Shown here one piece after another: positions 5,742 through 21,280 of a stretch of 21,281 nucleotides of DNA. The position numbers and the translations under genes are program-made. Numbering within the stretch: the stretch's first letter is position 1; every line of letters starts with the position of its first letter. The notes under the pieces are model-generated. The model saw nothing but the letters and a program-made list of their open reading frames with translations. It made no database searches and had not been told where the DNA came from. Location: the NCBI RefSeq assembly GCF_003437535.1, contig NZ_QSQT01000049.1:1-21281 (forward strand), read 5' to 3'. This DNA comes from Phocaeicola plebeius. Its GTDB lineage: Bacteria > Bacteroidota > Bacteroidia > Bacteroidales > Bacteroidaceae.

Positions 5742-5772
5742 AAGATATGTGTTTTTAAGGTGAGTATTTCTG

Positions 5773-8758: not shown

Positions 8759-11272
8759 ATGAACCTTATAGAACAATGCCAACAGTGGAATGAACAAGAC
8801 GAGTTTCAAAAAATAATAGATGCCATTGAAACTATTCCAGCTGACCAGCGCACTCCGGAGTTGGATAGTGAACTGGCCCGTGCTTATAACAATTTGGCCG
8901 AACCTACAGACAGGCACCTTTTTCAAAAATCCCTTGCCTTACTGAAACCCCATGAAAACTATTTCAAGGGGGACCATTGCTGGAATTTCCGCATAGCCTA
9001 TGCTTATTATTATTTAGAGCAAGAGGGAAGAGCGCTCCACTATTTCCGGCAGGCCCTGGATGCACGTCCTGGTGATGAGGATACCCAGCAAATGATAGAA
9101 GCATGCCGTAAGGATTTGTCGTTGCCCCGGTTTAACAAGACCTTTCGTGAACGTACAGAAAAGGCGTGGGCTGCTTTTGAACGGGAAGAAGCAAGGCTGC
9201 GCAAGATTATGCGCGAAGATATACGCCATGAGCGTAGCAAAGAACTGATTAGCCGTTGTGAGCGTGTCCTTTCCATCGCCCTGAGTGACACGGCATTCGA
9301 ACTTGGTTGTCAAAAGGACCGATATGAACTGGTGCTGAGTCCTGAAGGAGAACGGATGAAGCTGTTTCCACTGGTTTATTTCCAACAACATGCTCCGGCA
9401 TCCGTGCGTAAGAACTGGGACATTATAGTAGGCCGTCAGAAAAATCCTCATTCCACAATTCGTATAGATGAATATGAAGTAAAAGGAAAAGATGTGGATG
9501 TGTGGATAGAACAGATAAAAGGCAAGCAGGTGGTGCTTACTCTTTATTGTGAGAAACTGCTTCCTCTGCTGAAAGAAAACGAAAACAAGGCTTGGTGGAT
9601 GGTGGCCAACCTGATGTCGCACGAGCTGGGTGAAATTGCTTACCTGTCTCTGATTCGCAGTTTCGAATTGACGGCTACACCTAAAAAGGGAATCAGCACC
9701 AAGCTGTCCGTACTTTCTGACGCATTGAAGGCAATGAATCTGCCCGATTACAAAGATGCAGAAGAATTCCTGATTCACAATCGTATCAACTATAACTTGA
9801 GCCCGGAAGAAGACAAAAATGCCGACTGGCGTCTGGATGTCTTTACAGGGAGTGCCTGTGTGCCTGCACTTATCAACGGCTATTTAAGTGCGGAACCAGA
9901 TGCCATGGATGAGCTTCATCAGGATGGCATTGTGGCTGGATTCTTTATTTATCCGGCAATTGAAGCTGTAGAAGGAGAGGAACGTACGAAACAAATGCAG
10001 CAACTCAGGGATGACTTGCAGGAGAAAATCCGGAAGCAGGCTGGCGATGATGTGGTAGCTTTTCTGGGGGGAGCTACGGGACTGTATTGCGGATACCTGG
10101 ATTTTATGGCCTGGGATTTAAGGAAACTATTAGAGGTTGCTGCCGATGTCTTTTCACACACCAATCTGCCGTGGGCATACTTCCATTCTTTCCGCCGTGA
10201 TGTAAGTACGGTAAGAATATGGGAACGTACAGTCGAAGAAGAAGCTCATCAACAGGGCATACATCCGGACACCGGTTCCCTGCTCTCGGCAGAAGACCTT
10301 CGTGCGCTGGAAGCTTTTCATGAAGGGGCCACCGGTTATTTCGGAAAAATGTTCAGCTACATTGTAGATTTTGTAAGGAAAGGTGTCAAGGAAGGCCGTT
10401 TTACAGAAGAACAGGCCCGGGCTGACCTCCAGATAGCCTTGTGGTATTCGTATAGCTGTATCAACCTGACCTCTTATGAATATTATTACCGTGCCATGCA
10501 GTGGATGCCCGATTCGGAAAAGAATGCTAAAGGATGTGCCACATGGTATTATCGTTACTCTTGTGCGCTGATGTATTGCAGTCGGTTGGAAGAGGCCCTG
10601 AAATATGCCGAGCAAGGAGCAAAGGAAGAGCCCGATTATCCCTGGATATGGCTTCAGGTAGGAAAACTCCGTTATTATTTCGGCGATAAGAAAGGCGCGC
10701 TGGAAGCCGTAAAGCAGGGGCTTTCACTTGAACCGGGCGATTATGAGTTCCTGACATTGGGCCGGGAGATAGAGCTGGGAGCCTCACTTGAACAGATGGA
10801 GTTCCACTGGATAAATCCGGATGCAGACCGCGACCTGCTTAACGGGCTGGATGAAGAGGCTGACGATAAGAGATGTACCATTTCCTGTCTGACAGTCAAT
10901 CCGGAAGGTCTTGCTCGTTTCCATCGGATATTTACCCCCGGACTGGTTACTGATTATGTAAAGAATTCACCCTATTGCCGCTTCAACTATCAGACGCAGC
11001 ATGGCAAGGTAGAAGTAGTGTTCAAGATGAACGAGGCGGGGCTTTCTAAACTACAGGCCGACTGGCTGGTAATGGTGAAAGATGCACTGGATGACGGACG
11101 CTGGGCTGCACATCGTACTACAGAAAATCAGGAAGGAGCGCTTGAAACCATTGTCTTAGGACTTGACTATTCCATTCTCTTAGAGTACAAGCTGAAAGGT
11201 CCGGATGAAGGATATGTGCAGGTGTGGTTGAACAAGGATGGCACACCCGTTTCAAATGAAAGCGGTGATTGA
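8759..11272 (+). CDS. Large TPR-containing protein of unknown function
   Basis: This is an 837-residue soluble protein (849 if the in-frame ATG at 8723 is used; I prefer 8759 because it aligns with the start of the related N-terminal module in the DUF4026 protein). An N-terminal TPR-like region (about 1-120: FQKIIDAIETIP...WNFRIAYAYYYLEQEGRALHYFRQAL) is followed by a middle region with AWWMVANLMSHELGEIAY and GGATGLYCGYLDFMAWDL, then a second TPR stretch (about 590-670: TWYYRYSCALMYCSRLEEALKYAEQGA, IWLQVGKLRYYFGDKKGALEAVKQGL) and a C-terminal alpha/beta domain. No signal peptide and no catalytic motif. It faces away from the SUFU-rhomboid operon across the tandem repeats and is followed 45 bp later by the MORN-like gene, likely co-transcribed. 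Function unknown. Confidence 0.85.
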   Translation: MNLIEQCQQWNEQDEFQKIIDAIETIPADQRTPELDSELARAYNNLAEPTDRHLFQKSLALLKPHENYFKGDHCWNFRIAYAYYYLEQEGRALHYFRQALDARPGDEDTQQMIEACRKDLSLPRFNKTFRERTEKAWAAFEREEARLRKIMREDIRHERSKELISRCERVLSIALSDTAFELGCQKDRYELVLSPEGERMKLFPLVYFQQHAPASVRKNWDIIVGRQKNPHSTIRIDEYEVKGKDVDVWIEQIKGKQVVLTLYCEKLLPLLKENENKAWWMVANLMSHELGEIAYLSLIRSFELTATPKKGISTKLSVLSDALKAMNLPDYKDAEEFLIHNRINYNLSPEEDKNADWRLDVFTGSACVPALINGYLSAEPDAMDELHQDGIVAGFFIYPAIEAVEGEERTKQMQQLRDDLQEKIRKQAGDDVVAFLGGATGLYCGYLDFMAWDLRKLLEVAADVFSHTNLPWAYFHSFRRDVSTVRIWERTVEEEAHQQGIHPDTGSLLSAEDLRALEAFHEGATGYFGKMFSYIVDFVRKGVKEGRFTEEQARADLQIALWYSYSCINLTSYEYYYRAMQWMPDSEKNAKGCATWYYRYSCALMYCSRLEEALKYAEQGAKEEPDYPWIWLQVGKLRYYFGDKKGALEAVKQGLSLEPGDYEFLTLGREIELGASLEQMEFHWINPDADRDLLNGLDEEADDKRCTISCLTVNPEGLARFHRIFTPGLVTDYVKNSPYCRFNYQTQHGKVEVVFKMNEAGLSKLQADWLVMVKDALDDGRWAAHRTTENQEGALETIVLGLDYSILLEYKLKGPDEGYVQVWLNKDGTPVSNESGD

Positions 11273-11317
11273 TATTAAAGGGTTTAAAGAATAAAATCAA
11301 CTTTAAAAACAAATGAC

Positions 11318-12415
11318 ATGAAACGAATAAACTATTATCTGCTGCTTCTGGCAACCATGCTGTGTGTATCATCACTAAATGCACAGAAAGAATACTCTAT
11401 AGATTGTGTCACTGTAATCAATTTGGGAGACGGGCGTATTCTTCACAGAGATATATCTGGCAATAAACCTCTCAATGGCGAACATCGTATCATTGACGGT
11501 TATCATTCTGCTTACATTCTTGCCGGGTTCAAAGATGGTCTCTACAATGGTGATTATGAGGAATATGTGTACAATAAGCTGAAAGCCAAAGGCTCATACA
11601 GAGAGGGATGGAAGAATGGAATCTTCAAGAAGTTTGATGATGAAGGCAGAGTGACAGAAGAAAAATCCTACAAGGACGGAAAACTTGATGGGGCACATCG
11701 TACATTCTATACAAACGGCAAGCTGGAAATGGAGCGTTTCTACAAAGAAGGAAAACAGGATGGGAAGGATTTGTATTATGAATTTGACGGAACTCTGCGG
11801 AGGGAACATAACTATAAGAATGGGAAACAGATTGGCAAACAATATTCATACATAAAGGGTACATTCGAACTGAAAGAAACATCCTATTACAATGAACAAG
11901 GACTGCTTGATGGTGACTTTGAGCAACTTTACTTGTTCGGTCAGCCTCGTACTATCGGCCATTACAATAATGGTCAAAAGGATGGTACCTGGATACAGAT
12001 AGCAGAAAGTGGAGATACGCTTCATATAACGACTTACAATAACGGAAACGAAGAAGGACTTCAGGTTCGTTTCGACAGAGCGACCGGATCACGAGTAAAG
12101 GAATTTTACAAAAAGAATAACCGTTATGACGGATTTTATAGAGAATACGACCCTGAAACTGGAGAACTTATTTATGAGGCAACCTACCAGTTCGGACGTC
12201 TTAACGGTAAAGCAAAATCATTGGTACGCGATAACCGTTTCGATTATTGGGAAATAAGTACATACGTCAATGGTCGACAGACTGGTCCTTTTGAGTCACG
12301 ATATGTAAAGAACGATAAAGTAAGAGAAATAGGTACATATCGCAATGGTCATCGCACCGGACGATGGAAACGCTATGACATCAATGGAAAACTGGAGATG
12401 GAATGGGAAGAATAG
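11318..12415 (+). CDS. Secreted MORN/YwqK-like repeat protein
   Basis: The 365-residue protein starts with a signal peptide (MKRINYYLLLLATMLCVSSLNAQ, cleavage near residue 22) followed by repeated units of about 23 residues of the form G-x-Y/W...Y...G-x-L. Examples: GSYREGWKNGIFKKFDDEGRV, KSYKDGKLDGAHRTFYTNGKL, RFYKEGKQDGKDLYYEFDGTL, GTYRNGHRTGRWKRYDINGKL. This is the MORN-variant pattern annotated as YwqK-family antitoxin, which pairs with toxins in some bacteria; MORN proteins elsewhere are structural or binding scaffolds. Export argues for a periplasmic or outer-membrane place. It lies 45 bp behind the TPR gene and is the last gene before the cassette array. No toxin partner is visible. 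Confidence 0.8.
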   Translation: MKRINYYLLLLATMLCVSSLNAQKEYSIDCVTVINLGDGRILHRDISGNKPLNGEHRIIDGYHSAYILAGFKDGLYNGDYEEYVYNKLKAKGSYREGWKNGIFKKFDDEGRVTEEKSYKDGKLDGAHRTFYTNGKLEMERFYKEGKQDGKDLYYEFDGTLRREHNYKNGKQIGKQYSYIKGTFELKETSYYNEQGLLDGDFEQLYLFGQPRTIGHYNNGQKDGTWIQIAESGDTLHITTYNNGNEEGLQVRFDRATGSRVKEFYKKNNRYDGFYREYDPETGELIYEATYQFGRLNGKAKSLVRDNRFDYWEISTYVNGRQTGPFESRYVKNDKVREIGTYRNGHRTGRWKRYDINGKLEMEWEE

Positions 12416-12469
12416 GAATTATGGTTTAATAATCCTGTGTGTTGGAAAGGCCGGTTAATGATAGAGCGT

Positions 12470-12514
12470 ATGAAAACAGTTATATCGTTATTTATTATTA
12501 ATATGCCAAGTTAG
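12470..12514 (+). pseudogene. Truncated 5' remnant of a lipoprotein cassette
   Basis: The short frame here reads MKTVISLFIINMPS. Its first seven codons and the preceding bases (TTAATGATAGAGCGT) closely match the start of the intact lipoprotein gene at 20012 (TTAATAATAATTGAACGT then MKTVISLLF...). The frame ends inside the first array site. This looks like the head of a former cassette whose body was lost, leaving its start fused to the next site. Confidence 0.6.
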
Positions 12515-12550
12515 CTGCTAAACGCAGCTTCTTGTCTAGCCATTATCAAC
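12505..12550 (+). repeat. Array site 1 (CAAG type)
   Basis: Outer stem CAAG (12507-12510)/CTTG (12531-12534), inner stem AGCTGC (12513-12518)/GCAGCT (12524-12529), loop TAAAC; unpaired TT on the left and T on the right; right box AGCCATTATCAAC. First site, fused to the cassette remnant, so the left box is absent. Confidence 0.75.
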
Positions 12551-12568
12551 TATAAAGTAAATAAGTGT

Positions 12569-13159
12569 ATGTACGAGATTTTTTTAGAAAAGAACATCAA
12601 TAGTATCAGGCAAACAGTTGATGATGCCTTTATTGCTAAATACGCCGATTTGTCTTATCCGGAACTGACTACTCTATGGCAAGAAGTTGGACTGGGCAGC
12701 TATTGTGATGGAATGCTTAAAATCATAAATCCGTCAGATTACCAAGATGTACTAAACTCTTGTTATATTATGGACTATGACACATCGTTTCTGACATTCA
12801 TGTGTACGGCTTTCGGTGATGTCTTTGCCTATGTAAAAAATTCAAGATTGAAAAATTACATTGTTTATTTGAATGTAAGATACGGAACATATTTAATTCT
12901 TCCGGATAATCTCGTATTATTGTTGGGTAAAATAATCTTTAACAAAAGTATCTTGAAAGGTTGGTTTGATTTAGAAAATTATCCTGTAATTCAAGACGTA
13001 ATGGGAACTCCGGACTATGACGAGTGTTTCGGATATTCTCCACTGCTGGCATTGGGCGGAAGTGAAAGTATTGAAAATGTCAAGATTGTCAAGACACTTC
13101 CTTATATAGATATAAGTACACAAACAATCGGCAGATTCAAAGATTCAGATAAATTTTGA
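12569..13159 (+). CDS. GAD-like / T6SS immunity (Tdi1-type, DUF1851) protein, copy 1
   Basis: The 196-residue cytoplasmic protein has an N-terminal GAD-like part (about 20-90: FIAKYADLSYPELTTLWQEVGLGSYCDGMLKIINPSDYQ...FMCTAFGDVFAY) and a C-terminal Tdi1/DUF1851-type part (WFDLENYPVIQD..GTPDYDECFGYSPLLALGGSESIENVKI). Proteins of this composition protect against type VI secretion effectors, Tdi1 of Agrobacterium (DNase immunity) being the model; which toxin this one blocks is not visible. It has two paralogues in the array, at 16572 (very similar, same length) and 19356 (more diverged). Start ATG at 12569 follows the site 1 right box by 25 bases. The following site is of the same type (GCAGG) as the one behind copy 2. 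Confidence 0.85.
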   Translation: MYEIFLEKNINSIRQTVDDAFIAKYADLSYPELTTLWQEVGLGSYCDGMLKIINPSDYQDVLNSCYIMDYDTSFLTFMCTAFGDVFAYVKNSRLKNYIVYLNVRYGTYLILPDNLVLLLGKIIFNKSILKGWFDLENYPVIQDVMGTPDYDECFGYSPLLALGGSESIENVKIVKTLPYIDISTQTIGRFKDSDKF

Positions 13160-13170
13160 GTTTGAAAAAA

Positions 13171-13220
13171 GTTGATAACAACGCAGGATAACGGCAAGCC
13201 GTTCCCTGCTGAAACATTAA
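13171..13220 (+). repeat. Array site 2 (GCAGG type)
   Basis: Left box GTTGATAACAA. Outer stem GCAGG (13183-13187)/CCTGC (13205-13209), inner stem AACGGC (13190-13195)/GCCGTT (13198-13203), loop AA, unpaired AT left and C right. Right box AAACATTA. Confidence 0.9.
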
Positions 13221-13231
13221 CGATAATAATT

Positions 13232-13927
13232 ATGAATACAGAAGAACTTTATATTTGGCGATATGGGATAGGTAAACTTCCTAAAGGATTATTGGAGTAT
13301 GGTAGATCTGATATCTGTGATACTTACGATGAGAGTAAAAGGCAGAAGTTTCAGAATCTCGGGCAATGGATGTGGCAAAATAATGACGGATGGCGCGAGA
13401 ATTTACCTCCCGTCTTATTCCTTGTATGCAACAAGAAACCGGGAATCCTGCAATTTGATTTTCTTGATAAAAGCAGTATAGAACTCAAAATCGTATCGGA
13501 AGATTTTTTGTCTTTACTTCAAGAAAATGGGTTTATCGATAAATATGATATTGCAACTGTCAAGGTAGTAGACAAGAAAAACGAATCTCTAACGGATAAG
13601 AAATACTATGCTCTACGTATAAATCATTTTGATAACGATTATTTTCATTTCGGGAAAGGCATAACATATCAGAGTGACTTTCAAAAAAAACTAGGTACTT
13701 GTTTTACAGTATATCCTGATATGAAACTGAAAGACAGTTCAATCAAACAGAATTTCTTTGTTTTGAATAGTATAGAATATAAAGATGGTATAATATTCCG
13801 AGAAAGAGTTTTGGATAAGGTATTGAATCTGTATAAACCTGAAATTTACAAATTATCAGACTACTCCAAACTATGGATAGATAATGACTTTTATCCATAT
13901 GGAAATGAATTTATGATTGTGAAATAA
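13232..13927 (+). CDS. Imm11/Imm43-like predicted immunity protein
   Basis: The 231-residue soluble protein has no signal or membrane segment. A pattern of a central strand-rich half (LPPVLFLVCNKKPGILQFDFL, SSIELKIVSEDFLSLLQENGF, YDIATVKVVDKKNESLTDKKYYALRINHFDNDYF) and a C-terminal half ending in short strands (KDGIIFRERVLDKVLNLYKP...YPYGNEFMIVK) resembles the Imm11/Imm43 group of polymorphic-toxin immunity proteins. Resemblance is by eye and moderate. I chose ATG 13232; an upstream in-frame ATG at 13172 would translate the whole of array site 2. It occupies a single cassette between sites 2 and 3. Confidence 0.6.
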   Translation: MNTEELYIWRYGIGKLPKGLLEYGRSDICDTYDESKRQKFQNLGQWMWQNNDGWRENLPPVLFLVCNKKPGILQFDFLDKSSIELKIVSEDFLSLLQENGFIDKYDIATVKVVDKKNESLTDKKYYALRINHFDNDYFHFGKGITYQSDFQKKLGTCFTVYPDMKLKDSSIKQNFFVLNSIEYKDGIIFRERVLDKVLNLYKPEIYKLSDYSKLWIDNDFYPYGNEFMIVK

Positions 13928-13931
13928 AATC

Positions 13932-13982
13932 GTTAACAAGGTCGAGATAACAGCTAAACGCTGTTGCTCACCAAACCATTAA
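13932..13982 (+). repeat. Array site 3 (GAG type)
   Basis: Left box GTTAACAA. Outer stem GGT-GAG (13940-13942, 13944-13946; unpaired C between)/CTC-ACC (13967-13972), inner stem AACAGC (13949-13954)/GCTGTT (13960-13965), loop TAAAC, unpaired AT left and G right. Right box AAACCATTAATAAC. Confidence 0.9.
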
Positions 13983-13999
13983 TAACAATAGAACGAAAC

Positions 14000-14458
14000 A
14001 TGAAGATAAGAATATTGACTTATTTACCTCACATCATCTACTTTTTAGTATTGGGAGTACTATTATTGTTATTGGTGTGGATTGTAAGTCCATCTGATAC
14101 AGGTGGAGGCATGGACTTTGCTCCTTTTTTACAGGCAGCTTTACTTTTTGCAGGTGTTCTTGCATATCTGATTTACGATTTGTCTTTACATAAGCTCAAC
14201 TTCAGAATATCTTCACAATTTATAATATTTATTTTTTTAGCATGGTCGTTTAGACATTACTTTAAGATGCAGGAGCTGAATAAATTATGTAGTGGTCATC
14301 CGGAACCTCCATATGATTCTCTTATACCTCCACCAATAGATGATTTTATAGTATTATGGGTTGTTTGTCAGGGGATTCTTTTTTACTTATTCTTATTTAC
14401 AAATGTTTCGTATTTGTTAAATAGAAAAAAGTTATTAACAAACCGGGATAACGCTTGA
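14000..14458 (+). CDS. Small multi-pass membrane protein (cassette)
   Basis: The 152-residue protein has about four predicted membrane helices (YLPHIIYFLVLGVLLLLLVWIV; PFLQAALLFAGVLAYLIYDL; FIIFIFLAWSF; FIVLWVVCQGILFYLFLF) and a proline-rich loop (PEPPYDSLIPPPIDD). The family is not recognised. The start at ATG 14000 is preferred over 13964, which would translate array site 3. The last residues (LTNRDNA) and the stop are encoded by array site 4, whose loop supplies the TGA. In this context a membrane immunity protein against a pore-forming or membrane-inserted toxin is a reasonable guess, no more. Confidence 0.75.
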   Translation: MKIRILTYLPHIIYFLVLGVLLLLLVWIVSPSDTGGGMDFAPFLQAALLFAGVLAYLIYDLSLHKLNFRISSQFIIFIFLAWSFRHYFKMQELNKLCSGHPEPPYDSLIPPPIDDFIVLWVVCQGILFYLFLFTNVSYLLNRKKLLTNRDNA

Positions 14459-14482
14459 CTGCGTTCCCCACTAAACCATTAT
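14431..14482 (+). repeat. Array site 4 (GGG type), overlapping a CDS end
   Basis: Left box GTTATTAACAA. Outer stem GGG (14445-14447)/CCC (14467-14469), inner stem AACGC (14450-14454)/GCGTT (14461-14465), loop TTGACT, unpaired AT left and C right. Right box AAACCATTATAAAC. The upstream gene's stop lies in the loop. Confidence 0.85.
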
Positions 14483-14502
14483 AAACAATAAAACAAATTT
14501 TT

Positions 14503-14937
14503 ATGGAAGATTTTGATATTCTAAAGAGATTTGACAATGATAAGCTAATAGATGTTGTGAAAAATTATAAGCGTTACGGCTATGATGATGAAATTCGTGA
14601 TTATGCTATTAATTTATTGGAAGAAAGAGGCTGGAGCGTTGAGGATTTGAAAACATTCGGTTATTGGGAAAATTCCGATTACGAAGAAGCATTGATACAA
14701 TACAAAGCTTATTGTAGAAATTCACTGATAGCTGTCTGTGTCTTGGTGTTAAGTCTTTGTATGCTGGCGCCTATCTATCTTGTATTTGTTTTTATGGCAT
14801 ATCGGAATGTATGTAAGTTCTATCAGGCATTAGGGAGAAAGGAAGAAGCCGTATTCTCCTTTGACTTGTGTTGGCATGTTTTGTTGTTCTTTTACCTAAA
14901 AGAGAAAATGAAAGAGGAGTTGAAAGGAATAAGATAA
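14503..14937 (+). CDS. Two-helix membrane protein with soluble N-terminal domain (cassette)
   Basis: The 144-residue protein begins with a charged, helical domain of about 70 residues (DILKRFDNDKLIDVVKNYKRYGYDDEIRDYAINLLEERGWSVEDL), followed by one or two membrane helices (LIAVCVLVLSLCMLAPIYLVFVFMAY) and a second hydrophobic stretch (FDLCWHVLLFFYL), ending in a basic tail. No known family recognised. It fills one cassette between sites 4 and 5 and starts 20 bases after the right box of site 4. Probably inserted in the inner membrane with its N-terminal domain in the cytoplasm. Confidence 0.75.
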   Translation: MEDFDILKRFDNDKLIDVVKNYKRYGYDDEIRDYAINLLEERGWSVEDLKTFGYWENSDYEEALIQYKAYCRNSLIAVCVLVLSLCMLAPIYLVFVFMAYRNVCKFYQALGRKEEAVFSFDLCWHVLLFFYLKEKMKEELKGIR

Positions 14938-14985
14938 GTTTATAACAAAAAACAACTTAACGTTGTCTCTCACCCAAACCATTAA
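14938..14985 (+). repeat. Array site 5 (degenerate)
   Basis: Left box GTTTATAACAA, inner stem ACAAC (14952-14956)/GTTGT (14962-14966), right box CAAACCATTAACAA. The outer stem is not maintained, so this site may be decayed. Confidence 0.7.
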
Positions 14986-15001
14986 CAAAAACAGAAAGTC
15001 T

Positions 15002-15313
15002 ATGAACAAAGAATACTTTGTATTAGAAATAGAGGACACAAGTTCTGCTGAGTATAGAAAGAACTATTGGAAAAAAGCAGCCGAAATTCTCCTTGAGAGA
15101 ATATATCAAAGAGAACAGTGCATATCCGAAAAGGTTAAAAATATCATAGAACTTTGTTCTTTACCCGAACATCGTTTTTTTAATGTAGATGTTTATATGC
15201 CTAAAAAAAGGAATAAGGCAGATACCAACTATTATGCTCTACATTACGACTTTACCTATATTCAAAATGATATATTAGGAATGATTGATTACCTTAAAAT
15301 GATAGAACAATGA
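15002..15313 (+). CDS. Small soluble protein of unknown function (cassette)
   Basis: The 103-residue protein has no signal peptide or membrane segment. An N-terminal strand (MNKEYFVLEIED) is followed by helices (YWKKAAEILLERIYQREQCISEKVKNIIELC) and strands with basic residues (FFNVDVYMPKKRNKADTNYYALHYDF), ending in a helix. I do not recognise the family. The start is ATG 15002; the longer frame from 14963 would begin with translated array site 5. The next gene follows after five bases with no site, so these two genes form one two-gene cassette. Confidence 0.7.
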   Translation: MNKEYFVLEIEDTSSAEYRKNYWKKAAEILLERIYQREQCISEKVKNIIELCSLPEHRFFNVDVYMPKKRNKADTNYYALHYDFTYIQNDILGMIDYLKMIEQ

Positions 15314-15318
15314 TTTAA

Positions 15319-15774
15319 ATGATGATTGGTATGCGTTATCCGTTCAATCTTTCTGAACCTTTGGTCATTCCACGGAAGAAAATCAGTACATTTGTGGAAG
15401 CCGGGTTGTGTATCGCTTATATATGGCTCTGTTGGGACATGCTGTCCGAAAGACTGGTTTTTGGGATTCCCGTAGGCCTATTTTTTTATTTTTTGGTGAA
15501 GGGTATCCGGCATTGGCACCATGTCATCCGAATCAGTGAACAGGGAATCACTACTCCCAAAAGAAAGCTGTTGCTTTGGAATAAAATCTTGTATTGCCGA
15601 TATGTGGTAGTGTATGGTAGATATACGCATGTAGAACTGTTTCTCCGTACTAACCAGAACTACAACGAGACAATCCTTCTGGATGATTATTTCTGTAACC
15701 ATCGGGAGTTGAGGGCTGCCATTGCATTTTACTCCAGAGGGAAGGTGGAATTGGAAAGTAAAGAAGAATTTTAG
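15319..15774 (+). CDS. Membrane protein with PH-like C-terminal domain (second gene of a cassette)
   Basis: The 151-residue protein (or 147 from ATG 15331) has two close membrane helices (FVEAGLCIAYIWLCWDML; LVFGIPVGLFFYFLV) and a C-terminal region of alternating strands (HHVIRISEQGITTPKRKLLLWNKILYCRYVVVYGRYTHVELFLRT) that looks like a membrane-anchored PH-like (YdbT/bPH-type) domain. The call is by pattern only. Base composition is less AT-rich than neighbouring cassettes. It follows the 103-residue gene by five bases, so the pair is probably translationally linked. A 97-bp non-coding stretch separates its end from site 6, the largest such gap in the array. Confidence 0.7.
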   Translation: MMIGMRYPFNLSEPLVIPRKKISTFVEAGLCIAYIWLCWDMLSERLVFGIPVGLFFYFLVKGIRHWHHVIRISEQGITTPKRKLLLWNKILYCRYVVVYGRYTHVELFLRTNQNYNETILLDDYFCNHRELRAAIAFYSRGKVELESKEEF

Positions 15775-15872
15775 TATGAAATTACATTACTGGAATAATG
15801 TTTTCAATTCCGGGTAACAGACAGTATCTTGTTCATAGACCTAACCCAATATTAGAATGGGTATAATATTTT

Positions 15873-15925
15873 GCTAACTAGGTTGAGATAACAGCTTAAT
15901 GCTGTTCCTCAAGCAAATCATTAGA
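15873..15925 (+). repeat. Array site 6 (GAG type)
   Basis: Left box GCTAACTA. Outer stem TTGAG (15883-15887)/CTCAA (15908-15912), inner stem AACAGC (15890-15895)/GCTGTT (15901-15906), loop TTAAT, unpaired AT left and C right. Right box AAATCATTAGA. In the bases before it a weak hairpin (ACCCA 15844-15848/TGGGT 15858-15862) is followed by an AT-rich run. Confidence 0.9.
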
Positions 15926-15935
15926 TATAACAGAT

Positions 15936-16544
15936 ATGAGAATATTTATACTATATTGCTTGCTCCTTTTTCCACTTAGCTATGTCATAGCGGAAAATGG
16001 CTGTATGGAACAAAGTTCTGCAAAATATCATTCTTTGGCTGAACAAGATTCCCTTTATATAGAAACGGAAAAAACAGAATCTGAAATTCTATATAGGTTA
16101 TGTTTTAATCAGCAAGGTAAAAAGAATGTTGTTTTTGAGTTGAAAGCGGTAGATGATAGTAGTATTGACTTCATACAAAGCTATACAATCATGGGTGTAA
16201 GAAAGTTTGATAGCTTTGCTGTGTACGATAATGTAGCAGACGGAAATCGTTTTTTGTTTTTTGATTATGAAAGTCAAATTGCTTATATAACGCCTACTTG
16301 TTTTTCCGGTTTCTATCCGATATACAGTTCTGTGGACTTTTCAAAAATGGAAGTTTTGCTACAAAATGAACATTCTTGTTTGAAGTATCCAAGTGATACG
16401 TTAAGTATTGACAGTAAGGTGACTTATGTTCCATTTAACTGTAATAATCGAATCATAAAGGCAATTTTTGTTCTATACGCTCAAGTAGGAAAAGATAATA
16501 AATATTTAAAACGAAAGATAGCATCTGGCGATGCTCCTTTCTAA
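15936..16544 (+). CDS. Exported protein of unknown function (cassette)
   Basis: The 202-residue protein starts with a signal peptide (MRIFILYCLLLFPLSYVIAENG, cleavage near residue 19-20). The mature part is beta-rich with regular charged/aromatic strands (SLYIETEKTESEILYRLCFNQQ; KNVVFELKAVDDSSIDFIQSY) and no motif I recognise. It probably acts in the periplasm, which would suit immunity to a periplasm-acting effector. Its last residues (IASGDAPF) and stop are encoded by array site 7, so the reading frame runs through the hairpin. Single cassette between sites 6 and 7. Confidence 0.75.
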   Translation: MRIFILYCLLLFPLSYVIAENGCMEQSSAKYHSLAEQDSLYIETEKTESEILYRLCFNQQGKKNVVFELKAVDDSSIDFIQSYTIMGVRKFDSFAVYDNVADGNRFLFFDYESQIAYITPTCFSGFYPIYSSVDFSKMEVLLQNEHSCLKYPSDTLSIDSKVTYVPFNCNNRIIKAIFVLYAQVGKDNKYLKRKIASGDAPF

Positions 16545-16552
16545 CCATTATC
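16505..16552 (+). repeat. Array site 7 (GAAAG type), overlapping a CDS end
   Basis: Outer stem GAAAG (16513-16517)/CTTTC (16537-16541), inner stem AGCATC (16520-16525)/GATGCT (16530-16535), loop TGGC, unpaired AT left and C right. Right box TAACCATTATCAACC. The left box is weak here (TTTAAAAC). Confidence 0.9.
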
Positions 16553-16571
16553 AACCATAAAACGTAGAAAT

Positions 16572-17162
16572 ATGTACGAAGAATTTTTAGAAAAAAGCCT
16601 CAATAGTAAGAGGCAAGCAGTAGATGATACTTTTATTGCTAAATATGCTGATTTGTCTTATCCCGAACTGAATACTTTATGGCAGGAGGTCGGGTTGGGA
16701 AGTTATTGTAATGGGCTGTTTAAGCTCATTAATCCGTCCGATTATCAGGATGTGATAAACTCCTGTTTTGAAAAGGAGGATGACCAATCATTTCTACCAT
16801 TCATGTGTACGGCTTTCGGCGATCTCTTTGCCTATGTAAAGAATCCGAGACTGAATAATTACGTCGTTTATCTGAATGTCAGATACGGAACATATTTAAT
16901 ACTTCCTGCCAATCTTCGTGCGATTTTTAATAAGGTAATGGTAAATGAAAGTTTTTTGAAAGGCTGGTTTGATTTAGAAAATTATCCTGTAATACAAGAA
17001 AAACTCGGAACTCCAGATTATGATGAGTGTTTCGGATATTCTCTACTATTGGCTTTGGGAGGAAGTGAAGACATTGAAAACATCAAGATAGTTAAGACTA
17101 TTCCGTACATTGACATTTGTACCCAAACAATCGGCGAATTTGAAATTGCAGATAAATGGTGA
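16572..17162 (+). CDS. GAD-like / T6SS immunity (Tdi1-type, DUF1851) protein, copy 2
   Basis: The 196-residue close paralogue of the product of the gene at 12569 has the same length, the same GAD-like core (FIAKYADLSYPELNTLWQEVGLGSYCNGLFKLINPSDYQ) and the same C-terminal GTPDYDECFGYSLLLALGGSED. Differences cluster in the middle (EKEDDQSFLPFM; PANLRAIFNKVMVNESFLKG), which might set toxin specificity. The upstream site is of GAAAG type, unlike the one before copy 1, but the downstream site is of the same GCAGG type, as expected if each cassette carries its 3' site. Presumed cytoplasmic immunity protein. Confidence 0.85.
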   Translation: MYEEFLEKSLNSKRQAVDDTFIAKYADLSYPELNTLWQEVGLGSYCNGLFKLINPSDYQDVINSCFEKEDDQSFLPFMCTAFGDLFAYVKNPRLNNYVVYLNVRYGTYLILPANLRAIFNKVMVNESFLKGWFDLENYPVIQEKLGTPDYDECFGYSLLLALGGSEDIENIKIVKTIPYIDICTQTIGEFEIADKW

Positions 17163-17173
17163 ATATAGAATAG

Positions 17174-17224
17174 GTTGATAACGAAGCAGGATAACGGCAA
17201 GCCGTTCCCTGCTGAACCATTACT
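17174..17224 (+). repeat. Array site 8 (GCAGG type)
   Basis: Left box GTTGATAACGAA. Outer stem GCAGG (17186-17190)/CCTGC (17208-17212), inner stem AACGGC (17193-17198)/GCCGTT (17201-17206), loop AA, unpaired AT left and C right. Right box GAACCATTACTAAC. The hairpin is identical to those of sites 2 and 11. Confidence 0.9.
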
Positions 17225-17236
17225 AACAATAGAACG

Positions 17237-17704
17237 ATGAATAAAACCGTCCAATCCATAGTATCATTGACTGCTTTCAGTGCTTTACTGATAGCCATAA
17301 CATTATTTTGTGGTGGCTTAGGTTTTAGTCGTCTGTTCGAGATATATGGTATTATGGAATATTGCCTTTTAGGTTTACTTATTATTACAGATGTATTGCT
17401 AATCTACAAGGTCTATAAACTATATGCAATGCAGCCTAAAGTGATAATGTTATTGCTGGGCTTGGAATGTTGCTCTGTCATTTTGTGGCTTGCCTTTATC
17501 TGTATAGACCAAAGTCTATTAGATTGGCAAATTACAAACTTCATATTGCAAGCTGTCAATTTAGATGGTTTCACGGGAGATGAACGAGGATTGAATATGC
17601 TTGCAGTATTATGCGGCATTATTTATCCTCTTTGGGGGATTTGGTGTTTATTCACTGGATTGAAGTTTATAAATAAGTTAGTAACAACGAAAGATAGCAT
17701 CTGA
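17237..17704 (+). CDS. Four-helix membrane protein (cassette)
   Basis: The 155-residue protein has four clear membrane helices (IVSLTAFSALLIAITLFCGGLGF; IMEYCLLGLLIITDVLLIYKVY; VIMLLLGLECCSVILWLAFICI; LNMLAVLCGIIYPLWGIWCLF). No family recognised. It starts 15 bases after the right box of site 8. Its C-terminus (NKLVTTKDSI) and stop are encoded by array site 9: the left box reads as KLVTT and the loop TGAC supplies the stop. Inner-membrane location inferred. Confidence 0.75.
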   Translation: MNKTVQSIVSLTAFSALLIAITLFCGGLGFSRLFEIYGIMEYCLLGLLIITDVLLIYKVYKLYAMQPKVIMLLLGLECCSVILWLAFICIDQSLLDWQITNFILQAVNLDGFTGDERGLNMLAVLCGIIYPLWGIWCLFTGLKFINKLVTTKDSI

Positions 17705-17728
17705 CGATGCTCCTTTCTAACCATTATA
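17677..17728 (+). repeat. Array site 9 (GAAAG type), overlapping a CDS end
   Basis: Left box GTTAGTAACAA. Outer stem GAAAG (17689-17693)/CTTTC (17713-17717), inner stem AGCATC (17696-17701)/GATGCT (17706-17711), loop TGAC, unpaired AT left and C right. Right box TAACCATTATAAAC. Confidence 0.9.
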
Positions 17729-17742
17729 AACAGTAGCAATAT

Positions 17743-18102
17743 ATGATAGGATATTTATGGTATAAGACGGAGTACTTCACCCGACATTCAGATACAAGTA
17801 TGTATTCTTGGCATGTTCCAAGTGTGTTAAGTACCGTAATAATATTTTACGGAGTAGATATAGCTTTGATTTATTGGGCAGCTACAAGTGTTAATCCGGG
17901 ATCACTTTTTCTGCTTGCCTTTCCTCTTATATGGATTATTCTGTATGTCTATTATCATTATAAACGACGGTATTTGAAAATTCGAGAGGACGAATCGTAT
18001 GAGAAATATTCCAATATATGGGCTATTCTATTTTTAATATTACCGTTTATTATTCTAATTGTATTGCTGTTTATGGCAGATAAATTTTATATGCCATATT
18101 AA
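17743..18102 (+). CDS. Three-helix membrane protein (cassette)
   Basis: The 119-residue protein has a short polar N-terminus, two closely spaced membrane helices (VPSVLSTVIIFYGVDIALIYWAA; SLFLLAFPLIWIILYVYYHY), a charged cytoplasmic-type loop (KRRYLKIREDESYEKYSN), and a third helix (IWAILFLILPFIILIVLLFMA). Family not recognised. It fills one cassette between sites 9 and 10, with its start 15 bases after the right box of site 9. Confidence 0.75.
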   Translation: MIGYLWYKTEYFTRHSDTSMYSWHVPSVLSTVIIFYGVDIALIYWAATSVNPGSLFLLAFPLIWIILYVYYHYKRRYLKIREDESYEKYSNIWAILFLILPFIILIVLLFMADKFYMPY

Positions 18103-18120
18103 TCTTTTATAATAAAATAA

Positions 18121-18173
18121 GTTCATAACAAGGTTGAGATAACAGCTAACGCTGTTTCTCACCAAACCATTAG
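18121..18173 (+). repeat. Array site 10 (GAG type)
   Basis: Left box GTTCATAACAA. Outer stem GGT-GAG (18132-18134, 18136-18138; unpaired T between)/CTC-ACC (18158-18163), inner stem AACAGC (18141-18146)/GCTGTT (18151-18156), loop TAAC, unpaired AT left and T right. Right box AAACCATTAGC. Confidence 0.9.
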
Positions 18174-18188
18174 CGAAAACATATTAAG

Positions 18189-18758
18189 ATGAAACGGATA
18201 GAATTGTTTATGAATATGCTATACTATTGTAATTATATGATTTTTCATAAGGTACAAAAAGGTCTTGATTGGCTTGTTTTCTCTATATTGGACAATGTAT
18301 GTACACGAAAGTTCTGCAAAAGCAATGGTTACTGGAAATATGTAAACAACTTTAAGCAGATGTATAATAAATCGATGTGGTTTTCAGAAAATAAAAAGAA
18401 ACCGCCGGTTAAGATTCTTAGTATGGCAGACACAGGAATTATTTTATTTATTTGCATTAACTCGTTTACAATACTGATTAACTTACTTACAATACTGGAT
18501 GCTATAGCTATAAAAACAGATATAGAAGAATATGATTTTTTCAATAACAAAATGGTATTGGGATTACTAATAATTATTCTTTGTATAATGATATATTTTA
18601 CTTATCATGTTTTTATAGATAGGAACGATAAATATGTTTCTTATTTCAAGAAATTCAGGAAACAGAAATTTTGGAAACTATTTATATGGTATATACTATC
18701 TTATAGTATGTCTATGGCTTGTCTTGGTATAACTTTAAGGTTTATTCTGACAAAATAA
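18189..18758 (+). CDS. Membrane protein with three to four helices (cassette)
   Basis: The 189-residue protein has a long basic and aromatic N-terminal region (residues 1-80, with Cys-rich NVCTRKFCKSNGYWKY), then membrane helices GIILFICINSFTILINLLTIL, MVLGLLIIILCIMIYFTYHVF and LFIWYILSYSMSMACLGITL, with a basic loop (KKFRKQKFWK) between the last two. The loop-plus-final-helix arrangement resembles that of the product of the gene at 20768, which may be a distant relative. Family not recognised. Single cassette between sites 10 and 11. Confidence 0.75.
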   Translation: MKRIELFMNMLYYCNYMIFHKVQKGLDWLVFSILDNVCTRKFCKSNGYWKYVNNFKQMYNKSMWFSENKKKPPVKILSMADTGIILFICINSFTILINLLTILDAIAIKTDIEEYDFFNNKMVLGLLIIILCIMIYFTYHVFIDRNDKYVSYFKKFRKQKFWKLFIWYILSYSMSMACLGITLRFILTK

Positions 18759-18775
18759 TAGCAGAAAGAATATTT

Positions 18776-18823
18776 CACTAACAAAGCAGGATAACGGCAA
18801 GCCGTTCCCTGCTGAACCATTAG
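18776..18823 (+). repeat. Array site 11 (GCAGG type)
   Basis: Left box ACTAACAAA. Outer stem GCAGG (18786-18790)/CCTGC (18808-18812), inner stem AACGGC (18793-18798)/GCCGTT (18801-18806), loop AA, unpaired AT left and C right. Right box GAACCATTAGA. Confidence 0.9.
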
Positions 18824-18836
18824 ATATAATTGATTC

Positions 18837-19280
18837 ATGCGATATACAGTTAATATAATAGTGAGTATAAAGGACGTTATTAAAAAGATGGATATTGAAA
18901 TACCAGAGTACATTTCAAATATCCAGTCTTTCTATTTATATCTTAAAGAGAAATGTGATTTACCACAGGTTAATCAAGGTGAAGTCTGTATTTGCAGTAA
19001 GGATAAGAATAGAGATATAACTTTATTTGTCATAACTGATACCGAATCAGTTCTTTACTCTCCCTTTGAAGATATAAGTATGTTTGCTTCTATTTTTCCT
19101 CTTTATATTTCTTATTGTAGCACTATTGCACGAGCAGAAGAAATATTTCTCGCAAATGAAGGTTCTCACTATTATATGTGGCATGAAGGTTATGAAGATG
19201 AGTATTCAAAGTATGGAATCGCTAAAGAATTGGAAGAAGAATGGCTTCAAGAATACTGTTTATCTCCCAAGATTCCTTAA
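18837..19280 (+). CDS. Soluble protein of unknown function (cassette)
   Basis: The 147-residue cytoplasmic-type protein has no signal or membrane segment. The N-terminal half is strand/helix (RYTVNIIVSIKDVIKKMDIEIPEYISNIQSFYLYLKEKC), the middle has strands with charged turns (GEVCICSKDKNRDITLFVITDTESVLYSPFEDI), and the C-terminus is acidic (ANEGSHYYMWHEGYEDEYSKYGIAKELEEEWLQEY). I do not recognise the family; size and acidity fit a small immunity protein. Single cassette between sites 11 and 12, start 14 bases after the right box. Confidence 0.7.
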   Translation: MRYTVNIIVSIKDVIKKMDIEIPEYISNIQSFYLYLKEKCDLPQVNQGEVCICSKDKNRDITLFVITDTESVLYSPFEDISMFASIFPLYISYCSTIARAEEIFLANEGSHYYMWHEGYEDEYSKYGIAKELEEEWLQEYCLSPKIP

Positions 19281-19285
19281 ATATA

Positions 19286-19335
19286 TCTAACAAGGTCGAG
19301 ATAACAGCTAACGCTGTTTCTCACCAAACCATTAG
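19286..19335 (+). repeat. Array site 12 (GAG type)
   Basis: Left box TCTAACAA. Outer stem GGT-GAG (19294-19296, 19298-19300; unpaired C between)/CTC-ACC (19320-19325), inner stem AACAGC (19303-19308)/GCTGTT (19313-19318), loop TAAC, unpaired AT left and T right. Right box AAACCATTAG. Nearly identical to site 10. Confidence 0.9.
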
Positions 19336-19355
19336 TAATAAAGAAAGCAATTAAT

Positions 19356-19940
19356 ATGTACGATAAGTTTTTAGATAAGAGCCTAAACAGCACTCGCCAA
19401 ACGATAGATGATACTTTTATTGCAAAATATGCTAATGCGGTATCGGAACAAATAATCGAACTTTGGAAAGAAGTTGGACTTGGAACGTTTTGTGATGGAT
19501 TGTTCAGAATTATTAACCCCGATAAATATAAGACAATAGTAGATTATAGTTATCCTTTGTATGAATATGAAACAGCAACTCCATTTATGACAACTGTTTT
19601 TGGAGATATTTTTGCTTATGTTAAGAATCCCGTGATAGGAAATTATGTCGTATTCATCAATGTAAGATACGGAACATTCAAGATTTTATCCGAGAATGTT
19701 GATATACTATTGAATGTGGTAATTTTCAACAAAAGTTGTTTGGAATCATGGTTTTCCTTAAATAAATATCCTATGATAAAATCAGAAAAGGGTGTTCCTG
19801 CATTGGATGAATGTTACGGATACGTTCCAGCATTGGCATCGGGTGGTATAGAATCAATCGATAGTATCAAAATTCTAAAAGCTATTCCGTATATAGAAAT
19901 GTCACTCCAATTTATCGGGGATTTGAAGCGAGTGCGATAG
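19356..19940 (+). CDS. GAD-like / T6SS immunity (Tdi1-type, DUF1851) protein, copy 3
   Basis: This 194-residue product is the most diverged of the three paralogues. It keeps the opening (FLDKSLNSTRQTIDDTFIAKYAN), the GAD-like core (LWKEVGLGTFCDGLFRIINPDKY...FGDIFAYVKNP), VVFINVRYGTFKIL, and the C-terminal GVPALDECYGYVPALASGGIESIDSIKILKAIPYIEM. Divergence suggests recognition of a different toxin variant or a separate acquisition, not recent tandem duplication. It sits two sites away from the other copies' type pattern (upstream GAG, downstream GGG). Presumed cytoplasmic immunity protein. Confidence 0.85.
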   Translation: MYDKFLDKSLNSTRQTIDDTFIAKYANAVSEQIIELWKEVGLGTFCDGLFRIINPDKYKTIVDYSYPLYEYETATPFMTTVFGDIFAYVKNPVIGNYVVFINVRYGTFKILSENVDILLNVVIFNKSCLESWFSLNKYPMIKSEKGVPALDECYGYVPALASGGIESIDSIKILKAIPYIEMSLQFIGDLKRVR

Positions 19941-19947
19941 AATATAT

Positions 19948-19997
19948 TACTAACAAACCGGGATAACGTTTGACAGCGTTCCTTGCTGAACTATTAA
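19948..19997 (+). repeat. Array site 13 (GGG type, partly decayed)
   Basis: Left box ACTAACAAA. Inner stem AACGT (19965-19969)/GCGTT (19976-19980) with a terminal G-T pair, loop TTGACA. Outer GGG (19960-19962) can pair only with wobbles to CTT (19982-19984). Right box GAACTATTAATAA. Confidence 0.75.
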
Positions 19998-20011
19998 TAA
20001 TAATTGAACGT

Positions 20012-20440
20012 ATGAAAACAGTCATATCATTGCTTTTTTTACTGTTACTCATAATGCAAAGCTGCGGGTTCGTATATGAACGGCATCTTACAGGAAACTA
20101 TTACCTGATAGCGGTAGATACCAAGGAGGATATGGATGTGTGTTATCATCAGAAAAATGATTCACCCTATACGGGAATAACGGGAGCCAGTGTTTATGCA
20201 GTGGGATATGATGATAATTTTATTCTTGTCAAGGCATATCGTGCTTTTAAGGACAGCATGGGCATTTCCTTACCCCGTTATGATAAGGATACAACCGAAT
20301 ATTATATTATTCCCGTAAACAACACACAAAAAGCATGGGAAGCACAAGAAAATAAGTTTGGGGCATTCAGTAAAAAGGATTTTGAAGTCAAGCGGAAAGA
20401 ATTAGGTGTACCGGATGATATAACTTTTAAGGAGTTATAA
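20012..20440 (+). CDS. DUF3997-like lipoprotein (cassette)
   Basis: The 142-residue product starts MKTVISLLFLLLLIMQSC: signal peptide and lipobox with Cys18, so an exported lipoprotein. The mature part (GNYYLIAVD...SPYTGITGASVYAVGYDDNFILVKAYRA...EYYIIPVN...FGAFSKKDFEVKRKELGVPDDITF) matches by eye the short DUF3997-type lipoproteins. ATG 20012 is used; the longer frame from 19970 would translate array site 13. A remnant of a second copy of this gene's start lies at 12470. The next gene begins 22 bases downstream with no site between, so the two form one cassette. Periplasmic-side immunity is possible. Confidence 0.75.
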   Translation: MKTVISLLFLLLLIMQSCGFVYERHLTGNYYLIAVDTKEDMDVCYHQKNDSPYTGITGASVYAVGYDDNFILVKAYRAFKDSMGISLPRYDKDTTEYYIIPVNNTQKAWEAQENKFGAFSKKDFEVKRKELGVPDDITFKEL

Positions 20441-20461
20441 ATATATTATTAATGAGAAAAG

Positions 20462-20737
20462 ATGACGTCTTATGTCGTTTATTATCAGATTATTAGTGGT
20501 GACAATATCATTATAAATCCAAAATATAAAATAGATATGATAGCATGTGTAATAAATATGATACTTATAGCGGTTTCACTGTTGCTACTCTTTTTATTAA
20601 GAAAGAAGAAATATAAAGGTGTAAAGAAAATAATAATACTAACAATATGCTTTGTGACAGGTCTGTATATTTTGTTGCAAATAATTATGTTGCTATATTT
20701 CTTCTTAGGCGATTTCTCTGCAGAAGAATTATGGTAA
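20462..20737 (+). CDS. Small two-helix membrane protein (second gene of lipoprotein cassette)
   Basis: The 91-residue protein has two membrane helices (MIACVINMILIAVSLLLLFLLRKKK; IIILTICFVTGLYILLQIIMLLYFFLG) joined by a basic loop, with a polar N-terminus. The bases before the start (GAGAAAAG) form a possible ribosome binding site. No array site separates it from the lipoprotein gene, so the two probably work together or travel together. Family not recognised. Confidence 0.65.
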   Translation: MTSYVVYYQIISGDNIIINPKYKIDMIACVINMILIAVSLLLLFLLRKKKYKGVKKIIILTICFVTGLYILLQIIMLLYFFLGDFSAEELW

Positions 20738-20742
20738 AAATA

Positions 20743-20763
20743 TCACTAACAAAACTAATAATT
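20743..20763 (+). repeat. Hairpin-less array site scar
   Basis: The bases TCACTAACAAAACTAATAATT keep what looks like a left box (ACTAACAAA) joined directly to a right-box-like end (ACTAATAA), with the whole hairpin missing. It lies where a site is expected, between stop 20737 and start 20768. Confidence 0.45.
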
Positions 20764-20767
20764 CTTT

Positions 20768-21157
20768 ATGATTAAATTCTTTTTTGATGCGATGTATTAT
20801 CAGTTCTTTATATACAATAGGGATAAATTTAAGTTGGAAGATCCACATGAGAGAACAATATTACTATTCTGTGGAATATTATTTCTACCGATAATTGCAT
20901 TGATTTATCCATTGATAAAAGAGAATTTCAATTATGATTTGCCGTTTATTTTCTTTGTTCCAATATTTTATATTCTATATTATTTTTTTAATAGATATTA
21001 TGTAAGAAAGGGAAAGGGAATTGAGATAATACGAGAAAAACCTTTATTGTTTAAAAGCCAACGTTTATCGTTCATTATCTCTTGGATGGTTTACCCATTT
21101 TTAGCTGTATTGCTTTATTTCATGATAACACATCGGCATTGGCTGAAAATAATATAA
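20768..21157 (+). CDS. Four-helix membrane protein (last cassette)
   Basis: The 129-residue protein has an N-terminal aromatic region (MIKFFFDAMYYQFFIYNRDKF), then helices TILLFCGILFLPIIALIYPLI, LPFIFFVPIFYILYYFF and SFIISWMVYPFLAVLLYFMI, with basic loops (YYVRKGKG, KSQR). Family not recognised; the pattern resembles the product of the gene at 18189. It follows the hairpin-less scar by four bases and is followed by an intact site (14), after which the terminal inverted repeat cuts the array. Confidence 0.7.
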   Translation: MIKFFFDAMYYQFFIYNRDKFKLEDPHERTILLFCGILFLPIIALIYPLIKENFNYDLPFIFFVPIFYILYYFFNRYYVRKGKGIEIIREKPLLFKSQRLSFIISWMVYPFLAVLLYFMITHRHWLKII

Positions 21158-21170
21158 TAAAGATTTAATA

Positions 21171-21223
21171 GGTTGGTAACAACGAAAGAAAGCATCTGAC
21201 TATGCTCTTTTCTAACCATTAGC
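21171..21223 (+). repeat. Array site 14 (GAAAG type), at the array edge
   Basis: Left box GTTGGTAACAA. Outer stem GAAAG (21184-21188)/TTTTC (21208-21212, one G-T pair), inner stem AGCATC (21191-21196)/TATGCT (21201-21206), loop TGAC, unpaired AA left and C right. Right box TAACCATTAGC. The terminal inverted repeat starts five bases later, where the next cassette should begin. Confidence 0.9.
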
Positions 21224-21228
21224 ATTAA

Positions 21229-21280
21229 TACATATTCCGAAGCATACCCGTTCACTTTCCGGCAGCTTATTAGGGTATAA
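21229..21280 (-). repeat. Right copy of the 52-bp terminal inverted repeat
   Basis: This is the reverse complement of 1-52 with a single difference. It abuts the right flank of array site 14, so it interrupts the array exactly where a next cassette would start. Both copies have their inner ends (TACATATTCCG) facing the window. Confidence 0.9.

Follow-up and report, generated by a model that had tools for sequence, protein, structure and literature searches.

The contig NZ_QSQT01000049.1 of Phocaeicola plebeius (21,281 bp; this whole stretch is referred to below as the window) carries at positions 12440–21230 a low-GC array of 16 small genes, all co-oriented on the plus strand according to the open reading frame (ORF) listing and a full read of the region. 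Hairpin-forming sites separate most of these genes. Comparison with related loci makes it very probable that the genes and sites are recombination cassettes of a recombinase-associated acquired interbacterial defence (rAID) system that works like an integron, with exchange by a tyrosine recombinase within the three bases ATT.

Genes and sites of the array

The GC content of the array is 32.9% compared with 47.6% for positions 1–12415, and 15 of the 16 genes lie below 41%, the exception being 15319–15774 with 41.9%. A covariance model of the site (R1, see below) detected 14 sites in the array at E ≤ 0.05, all on the plus strand, and none at this threshold in the rest of the 21.3-kb window. A 15th site at 20440–20502 is decayed; it is visible by eye and in the alignment and was missed by R1.

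At its 5′ end the array starts with a truncated DUF3997-like cassette remnant (12454–12496), which forms a direct repeat (D14) with 19998–20038, where the gene at 20012 also starts, and which is longer in the related locus L001. It is followed by site S1 (12494–12549; R1 score 53.5 bits), a Tdi1-type immunity gene (12569–13159; PF08906, 1.9e-15; PF08887, 1.3e-12), S2 (13171–13223; 57.7 bits), an Imm43 immunity gene (13232–13927; PF15570, 1.9e-33) and S3 (13929–13985; 64.6 bits). The gene at 14000–14458 encodes a small protein, a membrane protein by its sequence, with no Pfam match at E ≤ 1, and its end is overlapped by S4 (14431–14485; 64.7 bits). Another small protein with a hydrophobic stretch is encoded at 14503–14937; it is matched at 98.4% by a cassette of locus L061 that has different neighbours, and it is followed by S5 (14938–14988; 46.3 bits), in which the outer stem is shortened. 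The ORFs 15002–15313 and 15319–15774 form one shared cassette with no site between them, closed by S6 (15870–15927; 50.4 bits). A gene of unassigned function (15936–16544; ORF listing and Pfam scan) and S7 (16502–16554; 47.7 bits) precede a second Tdi1-type gene (16572–17162; PF08906, 3.6e-19) and S8 (17174–17226; 64.6 bits). Directly after the ATTA of S8 the window parts from the array of its close relative G001, a metagenome-assembled genome (MAG) titled uncultured Bacteroides sp., which also holds L001.

Downstream, three hydrophobic (membrane) protein genes at 17237–17704 and 18189–18758 (both from the ORF listing) and at 17743–18102 (with a homologue at the attI-like site of L059, see below) alternate with S9 (17677–17730; 70.1 bits), S10 (18121–18176; 68.7 bits) and S11 (18774–18826; 59.7 bits). 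The array continues with a gene of unassigned function (18837–19280; ORF listing and Pfam scan), S12 (19283–19338; 67.6 bits), a third Tdi1-type gene (19356–19940; PF08887, 8.3e-13; PF08906, 1.3e-12), S13 (19946–20000; 55.1 bits) and a gene with a weak DUF3997 match (20012–20440; 20.8 bits against a cut-off of 25) whose homologue stands at the attI-like site of L103. The decayed site mentioned above, S14, was delimited by the alignment and by comparison with G001, relative to which its right junction is still a cassette boundary. The last genes encode a small hydrophobic protein (20537–20737) and a hydrophobic (membrane) protein (20768–21157) with homologous cassettes in L044, L005 and L006, and the array ends with S15 (21172–21225; 56.7 bits). 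Comparison with G001, which retains a site between these two genes, revealed its loss in the window; the missing hairpin reads as a deletion between TAACAA repeats.

The first-pass annotation of this DNA had described about sixteen same-strand genes, each followed by a site. The 16 genes and 14 sites bear this out in outline, but a two-gene cassette, one decayed and one lost site break the one-to-one rule. Its description of genes starting shortly after one site and ending at or inside the next agrees with the 170 cassettes delimited by R1 sites in the window and its related loci: genes start at a median of 20 nt past ATTA and stop at a median of 9 nt ahead of the next TAAC, with 39 of 170 stops inside the site. 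The longest ORF was co-oriented with the sites in 170 of 171 inter-site intervals (window and 29 loci), and the median cassette size is 642 bp.

Pfam recognized Tdi1 three times and Imm43 once in the window. Among 150 of the 167 listed cassette proteins (17 near-duplicates were left out), the families were Tdi1 (10), SMI1/KNR4 (7), SUKH_6 (5), PoNi (4), Imm5 (3), Imm-NTF2 (3) and Imm11 (3). By analogy with published rAID work, which describes protection against type VI effectors (PMC12247911, accessible part), the cassette genes may protect against such effectors.

The hairpin site and the limits of the cassette

Alignment of the 15 window sites gave an RNAalifold consensus hairpin with six of nine pairs compensated. 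Together with the array-bearing plasmid records of Parabacteroides distasonis (L005), Bacteroides finegoldii (L006) and Bacteroides ovatus (L007), 34 sites were available, with 12 stem pairs of which 10 had changed on both sides; R1 was derived from this set. Pairing occupied 82.6% of cells compared with 67.6 ± 1.0% after shuffling (none of 500 shuffles was as high), and fell to 24–45% when the partner was slid by 1–3 columns. At E ≤ 0.05, R1 found 205 sites, distributed over the window and 29 of 30 loci and all on one strand within each. With 148 distinct rows (150 of the 205 sites aligned, the alignment itself being fitted to R1), 88.7% of cells paired compared with 71.9 ± 0.6%, and the measures for double changes and pair types gave 3 and 8 of 500 shuffles. 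The hairpin covaries by these comparisons and is not a product of chance. A GTT/AAC outer pairing of the boxes was considered and not used (68% of cells pair, with no compensatory pair).

The site consists of a left box nTAAC(A/G)A, an outer stem of up to six pairs, an asymmetric internal loop, an inner stem of six pairs, a loop and a right box (A)ACCATTA, after which a weaker AACAAT-like stretch opens the next unit. The stem letters vary strongly between site classes while pairing is maintained. The internal loop is conserved as AT versus C, a 2:1 asymmetry (A in 123, T in 142 and C in 128 of 150 sites). When four sites were folded as DNA, both strands folded alike; the 2:1 loop is only suggestive as a cue by which the strands might be told apart.

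Scanning 251 genomes of the family of G001 with R1 gave matches at E ≤ 0.001 in at least 15 genomes, at least 12 of them with more than one match, mostly clustered; these counts are lower bounds, as filtering was strict and 22 candidates were scored per genome. An earlier loose site pattern was uninformative on an uncultured Bacteroides MAG (125 matches compared with 161 in the reversed control). One exact site pattern had no match in viral contigs, and megablast of the array had none in phages.

The 170 cassettes formed 101 homologous pairs, and 96 of these had no homologous neighbour, where neighbours past array or contig ends were not counted as known and pairs are not fully independent, several loci coming from one genome. 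All five pairs that share a neighbour are between the window and G001, and one pair crosses genera (P. distasonis L005 and B. finegoldii L006, 97.8%). Shared identity runs from the base after the CATTA of one site through the gene and its downstream site to the next CATTA. Column-wise identity was calculated for pairs that are at least 88% identical and whose neighbours are non-homologous (34 upstream, 35 downstream). At the upstream site it reached 0.94 at the base after ATTA (background 0.27) and was near background to the left, where a few stem columns exceeded it by at most about 0.3. At the downstream site it was 0.23 directly after the site (background 0.25), and columns from the left flank to the right box were mostly above background. 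With each cassette family represented by a single pair at 80% or more (25 upstream, 26 downstream), position +1 upstream was identical in 22 of 25 and position −8 in 9 of 25, with 0.53 over −25 to −5 compared with 0.82 over +1 to +20; downstream, positions −4 to 0 were identical in at least 25 of 26 and +1 in 6 of 26. The mobile unit would hence be an immunity or membrane gene together with its downstream hairpin site.

The exchange point can be narrowed further at locus L062, where two copies of one cassette follow each other (99.7%), the first of them located at an attI-like site. Its downstream site reads AACCATT followed by C before the second copy and AACCATT followed by A before other units (L062, L061), and the same C follows ATT when this unit occupies the attI-like site. 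Among attI-like sites whose units follow C elsewhere, the position preceding ATT is either A or C. Provided that bases come from the side they match, the switch between C and A after ATT and the variable base before it place the exchange within ATT, and we infer from this comparison that the exchange point is confined to these three bases.

Cassette content has also changed between close relatives. L001 matches the chromosomal side of the window at 97.1% over the MORN gene stretch, and its first cassette at 98.0% to the contig end. The window and G001 (L044) share a 3298-bp block at 99.06% in the same order with different cassettes flanking it; the first divergence comes directly behind the ATTA at 17222 and the second past 20495, at the decayed site. 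Because whole cassettes differ at exact junctions and shared cassettes are 99% alike, this turnover was recent.

Hairpins seem to change independently of genes in some cassettes. Out of 65 pairs with gene identity of at least 80%, 10 combined a left-flank identity of at least 0.75 with a hairpin identity below 0.70; after two with the shortened S5 were set aside, eight pairs from five cassette families remained. In all eight the change lies at or just after the left TAAC box (TAAT in two sequences). The left box is thus a possible second exchange point, where a gene would keep its left box and gain a new hairpin. That the recombinase makes these swaps is a conjecture, and template switching could also produce them. 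The swaps bear on how genes obtain cassette sites.

Recombinase and attI-like site

In relatives, a tyrosine recombinase gene lies 5′ of the array. Copies of 81–97% identity occur in 8 of the 15 site-bearing genomes, in all eight on the array strand with the first site 0.3–2.0 kb 3′; L005, L007 and G415 are arranged likewise, which gives 11 related arrays in all. Copies of 49% in G246 and G203 are near R1 sites, and the G150 copy has no detected site nearby. The protein of 368 amino acids carries a Pfam phage-integrase domain and an N-terminal extension of about 90 residues. Arg, Lys, His-x-x-Arg, His and Tyr positions, which we take to be the tyrosine recombinase residues, are invariant in 18 sequences. 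Among NCBIfam models the XerA-type NF040815 fits best, at a score just below cut-off, and the best PDB sequence match of the protein is the integron integrase IntI4 (3.2e-36).

After the stop codon of the recombinase gene, 10 of 11 loci contain a conserved attI-like block that includes an ACACC/GGTG(T,C) dyad and ends in (A/C)ATT. Over 40 bases compared, it shares little with the cassette sites beyond the CATTA motif. Eight of the ten first cassettes at these sites recur as inner cassettes (82–99.7%), one of the eight only within its own array, and homology of the recurring cassettes begins within the letters (C/A)ATTA.

The first-pass annotation had noted that no recombinase is visible in the window, and indeed tblastn with the recombinase gave no match there at E ≤ 1e-5. 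Further multi-site arrays with a visible 5′ side and no intact recombinase are L001 and L050, in which, as in the window, none was found, L006 with an N-terminal fragment, L066 with a C-terminal fragment and L043 with a decayed copy (the single-site loci L065 and L069 were left out). The L043 copy (4343–5098, minus strand) shows internal losses and lies 5′ of another G001 array. For integrase-less attC clusters, integrase loss and off-target insertion have both been proposed as origins (PMC8618304, accessible part).

A broader recombinase clade (46–54% identity) occurs at L104–L116 in other genomes of the order. None of these 13 genomes has an R1 site, and a repeat search of three loci gave no recognizable array. 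Perhaps these are other cassette platforms with other sites. Seven of the 13 contigs end 82–504 bases past the stop codon, and hairpin-like stretches follow several of the genes. In L005 (12679–28385) and L007 (9780–28049), a TetR gene, the recombinase and the array stand beside RteC, primase and topoisomerase genes such as occur on conjugative elements of Bacteroides. In L006 (1823–6880), a long ORF is annotated as Imm5 family, with its first ~96 residues resembling the recombinase N-terminus (60%).

Known systems and competing explanations

Arrays of this kind, including their 'conserved intergenic sequence motifs', have been published as rAID in Bacteroidales (PMC12247911, accessible part), as the first-pass annotation had stated for orphan immunity genes with tyrosine recombinases. 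In agreement with that account, the orphan immunity genes of the window are co-oriented, short and low in GC and have conserved motifs between them, and its relatives have a 5′ tyrosine recombinase. The window itself has at least two co-directional genes below 41% GC, 14 R1 sites (set beside the published motifs by description only) and orphan immunity genes (Tdi1 three times, Imm43). An upstream rAID tyrosine recombinase is absent from the window, unlike in rAID, and that of the relatives was set beside the published B. fragilis one by context only; we therefore class the window as an array of rAID type that lacks the recombinase, and not as a complete rAID system. The original rAID paper is reportedly that of Ross (2019).

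Resemblance to integrons, known for spreading antibiotic resistance, and to clusters of attC sites lacking integrases (CALIN) lies in the unit of gene plus downstream structured site, the main exchange point at the right end of the site, a primary site with the same exchange point beside the recombinase gene (10 of 11 loci, 8 of 10 first cassettes) and the occurrence of recombinase-less arrays. In contrast, the recombinase has no IntI insertion, its alignment with IntI4 being split at the extra residues of the latter, and scores only 191.5 and 186.5 bits with the integron-integrase model TIGR02249 (cut-off 265). The core boxes of attC are RYYYAAC and GTTRRRY; together they occur in none of the 205 sites in either orientation, RYYYAAC alone being present at the left box in 12. 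Here the exchange motif is ATT in AACCATTA, and the possible second exchange point at the left box is a further difference. Integron membership fails on these comparisons, and the sites still appear to behave as integron-type cassette sites. XerA/XerH-type recombinases act at a single dif-type site, from which the present system differs by its cassette arrays and the N-terminal extension.

For Bacteroidetes proper, IntegronFinder 2.0 names a single complete integron, that of Salinibacter ruber (PMC9024848, accessible part), so an integron-like platform built of other parts may be missed by attC/IntI models. The novelty of the findings was judged against the accessible parts of PMC12247911, PMC8618304, PMC9024848, PMC12632263 and PMC8876359. 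Within the open-licence literature, neither an integron-like mechanism of rAID with base-level boundaries, attI-like site and hairpin exchange nor a paper joining integron-like and Bacteroidales was found; the word integron occurs zero times in the accessible part of PMC12247911, and unit definition, exchange point, attI-like site and hairpin covariation go beyond its account. What the first-pass annotation called a new type of structured site is hence not wholly new, being probably already published as an intergenic motif, and is new in its integron-type behaviour.

According to the favoured explanation, the recombinase encoded just 5′ of the array in relatives would cut and join inside ATT, which is invariant in the right box AACCATTA, reading the hairpin as folded DNA, and units would move between arrays and into the attI-like site behind its gene. 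The window copy would be served in trans or be a relic. The array and attC analogue proposed by the first-pass annotation gain support from the differing neighbours and from the boundary at one motif on both sides; the model search revealed clustered sites, the integrase was found 5′ of related arrays, and the window and G001 differ by flanking cassettes. Identical genes in identical order with no recombinase nearby, the pattern it named as contrary to its view, is not what these loci present.

Several observations weigh against this explanation. Unit boundaries, the three-base exchange point, the attI-like site, hairpin covariation and turnover relative to G001 emerge from sequence comparison, and recombination is deduced from them; no event, circle or strand preference was seen. 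Besides the missing recombinase of the window and the partly dependent pairs, 6 of the 15 site-bearing genomes have no recombinase match at E ≤ 1e-30, L057 has no attI-like sequence after its recombinase, and among the ten first cassettes that of L047 is matched elsewhere in part only and that of L051 not at all. S13 misses the consensus fold on either strand, and with 34 sites two of five measures (double-change pairs and further pair types) were not clearly above shuffles (57 and 82 of 500). In the per-family set, downstream-site identity over −25 to −5 reached only 73%, in part owing to pairs with a changed hairpin. Finally, the junction between S3 and L044 stays identical into the hairpin, which fits either exchange left of ATT or chance likeness of that class of hairpin (the odd letter is present in 5 of 29).

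That junction, and two sites of one class that are 98% alike over 48 bp, would also suit mere repeats between which homologous recombination shuffles genes, the recombinase serving another purpose. Break points should then scatter over the 45-bp site; instead, identity switches within CATTA on both sides in the per-family set, and likewise at the attI-like site, which is otherwise little alike. This largely refutes the idea, and we regard it as highly unlikely. The hairpins might instead act in RNA, in termination, processing or pausing within a polycistron, with the adjoining exchange point incidental. An RNA element would be expected to covary just as much, the sites are intergenic and on the coding strand, and both roles could coexist. 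No described Rfam family matches the array at E ≤ 1, however. Conservation is among the highest in the flanking boxes and the exchange motif, with 193 of 205 sites carrying CATTA, and the attI-like sites with their ACACC/GGTG dyad end in the same motif; an RNA role alone is very unlikely. Compatible with cassette exchange in the system as a whole, the window array could be a dead relic, assembled elsewhere or earlier and now decaying. The missing recombinase, the fragments in L006 and L066, and one decayed and one deleted site suggest this, and since only a decayed recombinase was seen in G001, 5′ of another array, the window copy may be such a relic. The recent whole-cassette turnover speaks against decay, and the contigs of G001, a MAG, end within arrays or close to them; we consider the relic a possibility to be taken seriously but not the probable one. 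The driver acting from outside or in trans, as first proposed, is supported by the recombinases of related arrays and is unproven in trans for the window genome.

If cassette exchange operates as proposed, rAID turns from immunity genes near a recombinase into a cassette machine whose unit, cassette site, primary site and three-base exchange point are all defined, and the cargo would tie cassette capture to warfare among gut bacteria. More tentatively, gut Bacteroidales might possess a second, IntI-independent integron, in which an Xer/IntI-like recombinase reads a folded single-strand site and exchanges at both hairpin ends. Exchange at ATT would then move gene-plus-site units and exchange at the left TAAC would put a new hairpin behind an old gene, a direct route for genes to acquire cassette sites.

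Outside the array, L001 contains at 3008–3443 an 83% homologue of the cassette gene 14503–14937, located between TPR and MORN genes. In the window, an ORF at 5773–8037 (minus strand) fuses SUFU and rhomboid domains and adjoins DUF4026/DUF2314 and TPR genes; this neighbourhood is perhaps a second immunity island beside the array. The 849-amino-acid TPR protein of the window has a 92% match in an uncultured Bacteroides MAG and homologues of 55–57% in Flavonifractor/Clostridia MAGs (L002, L003, L004), which suggests transfer between phyla.

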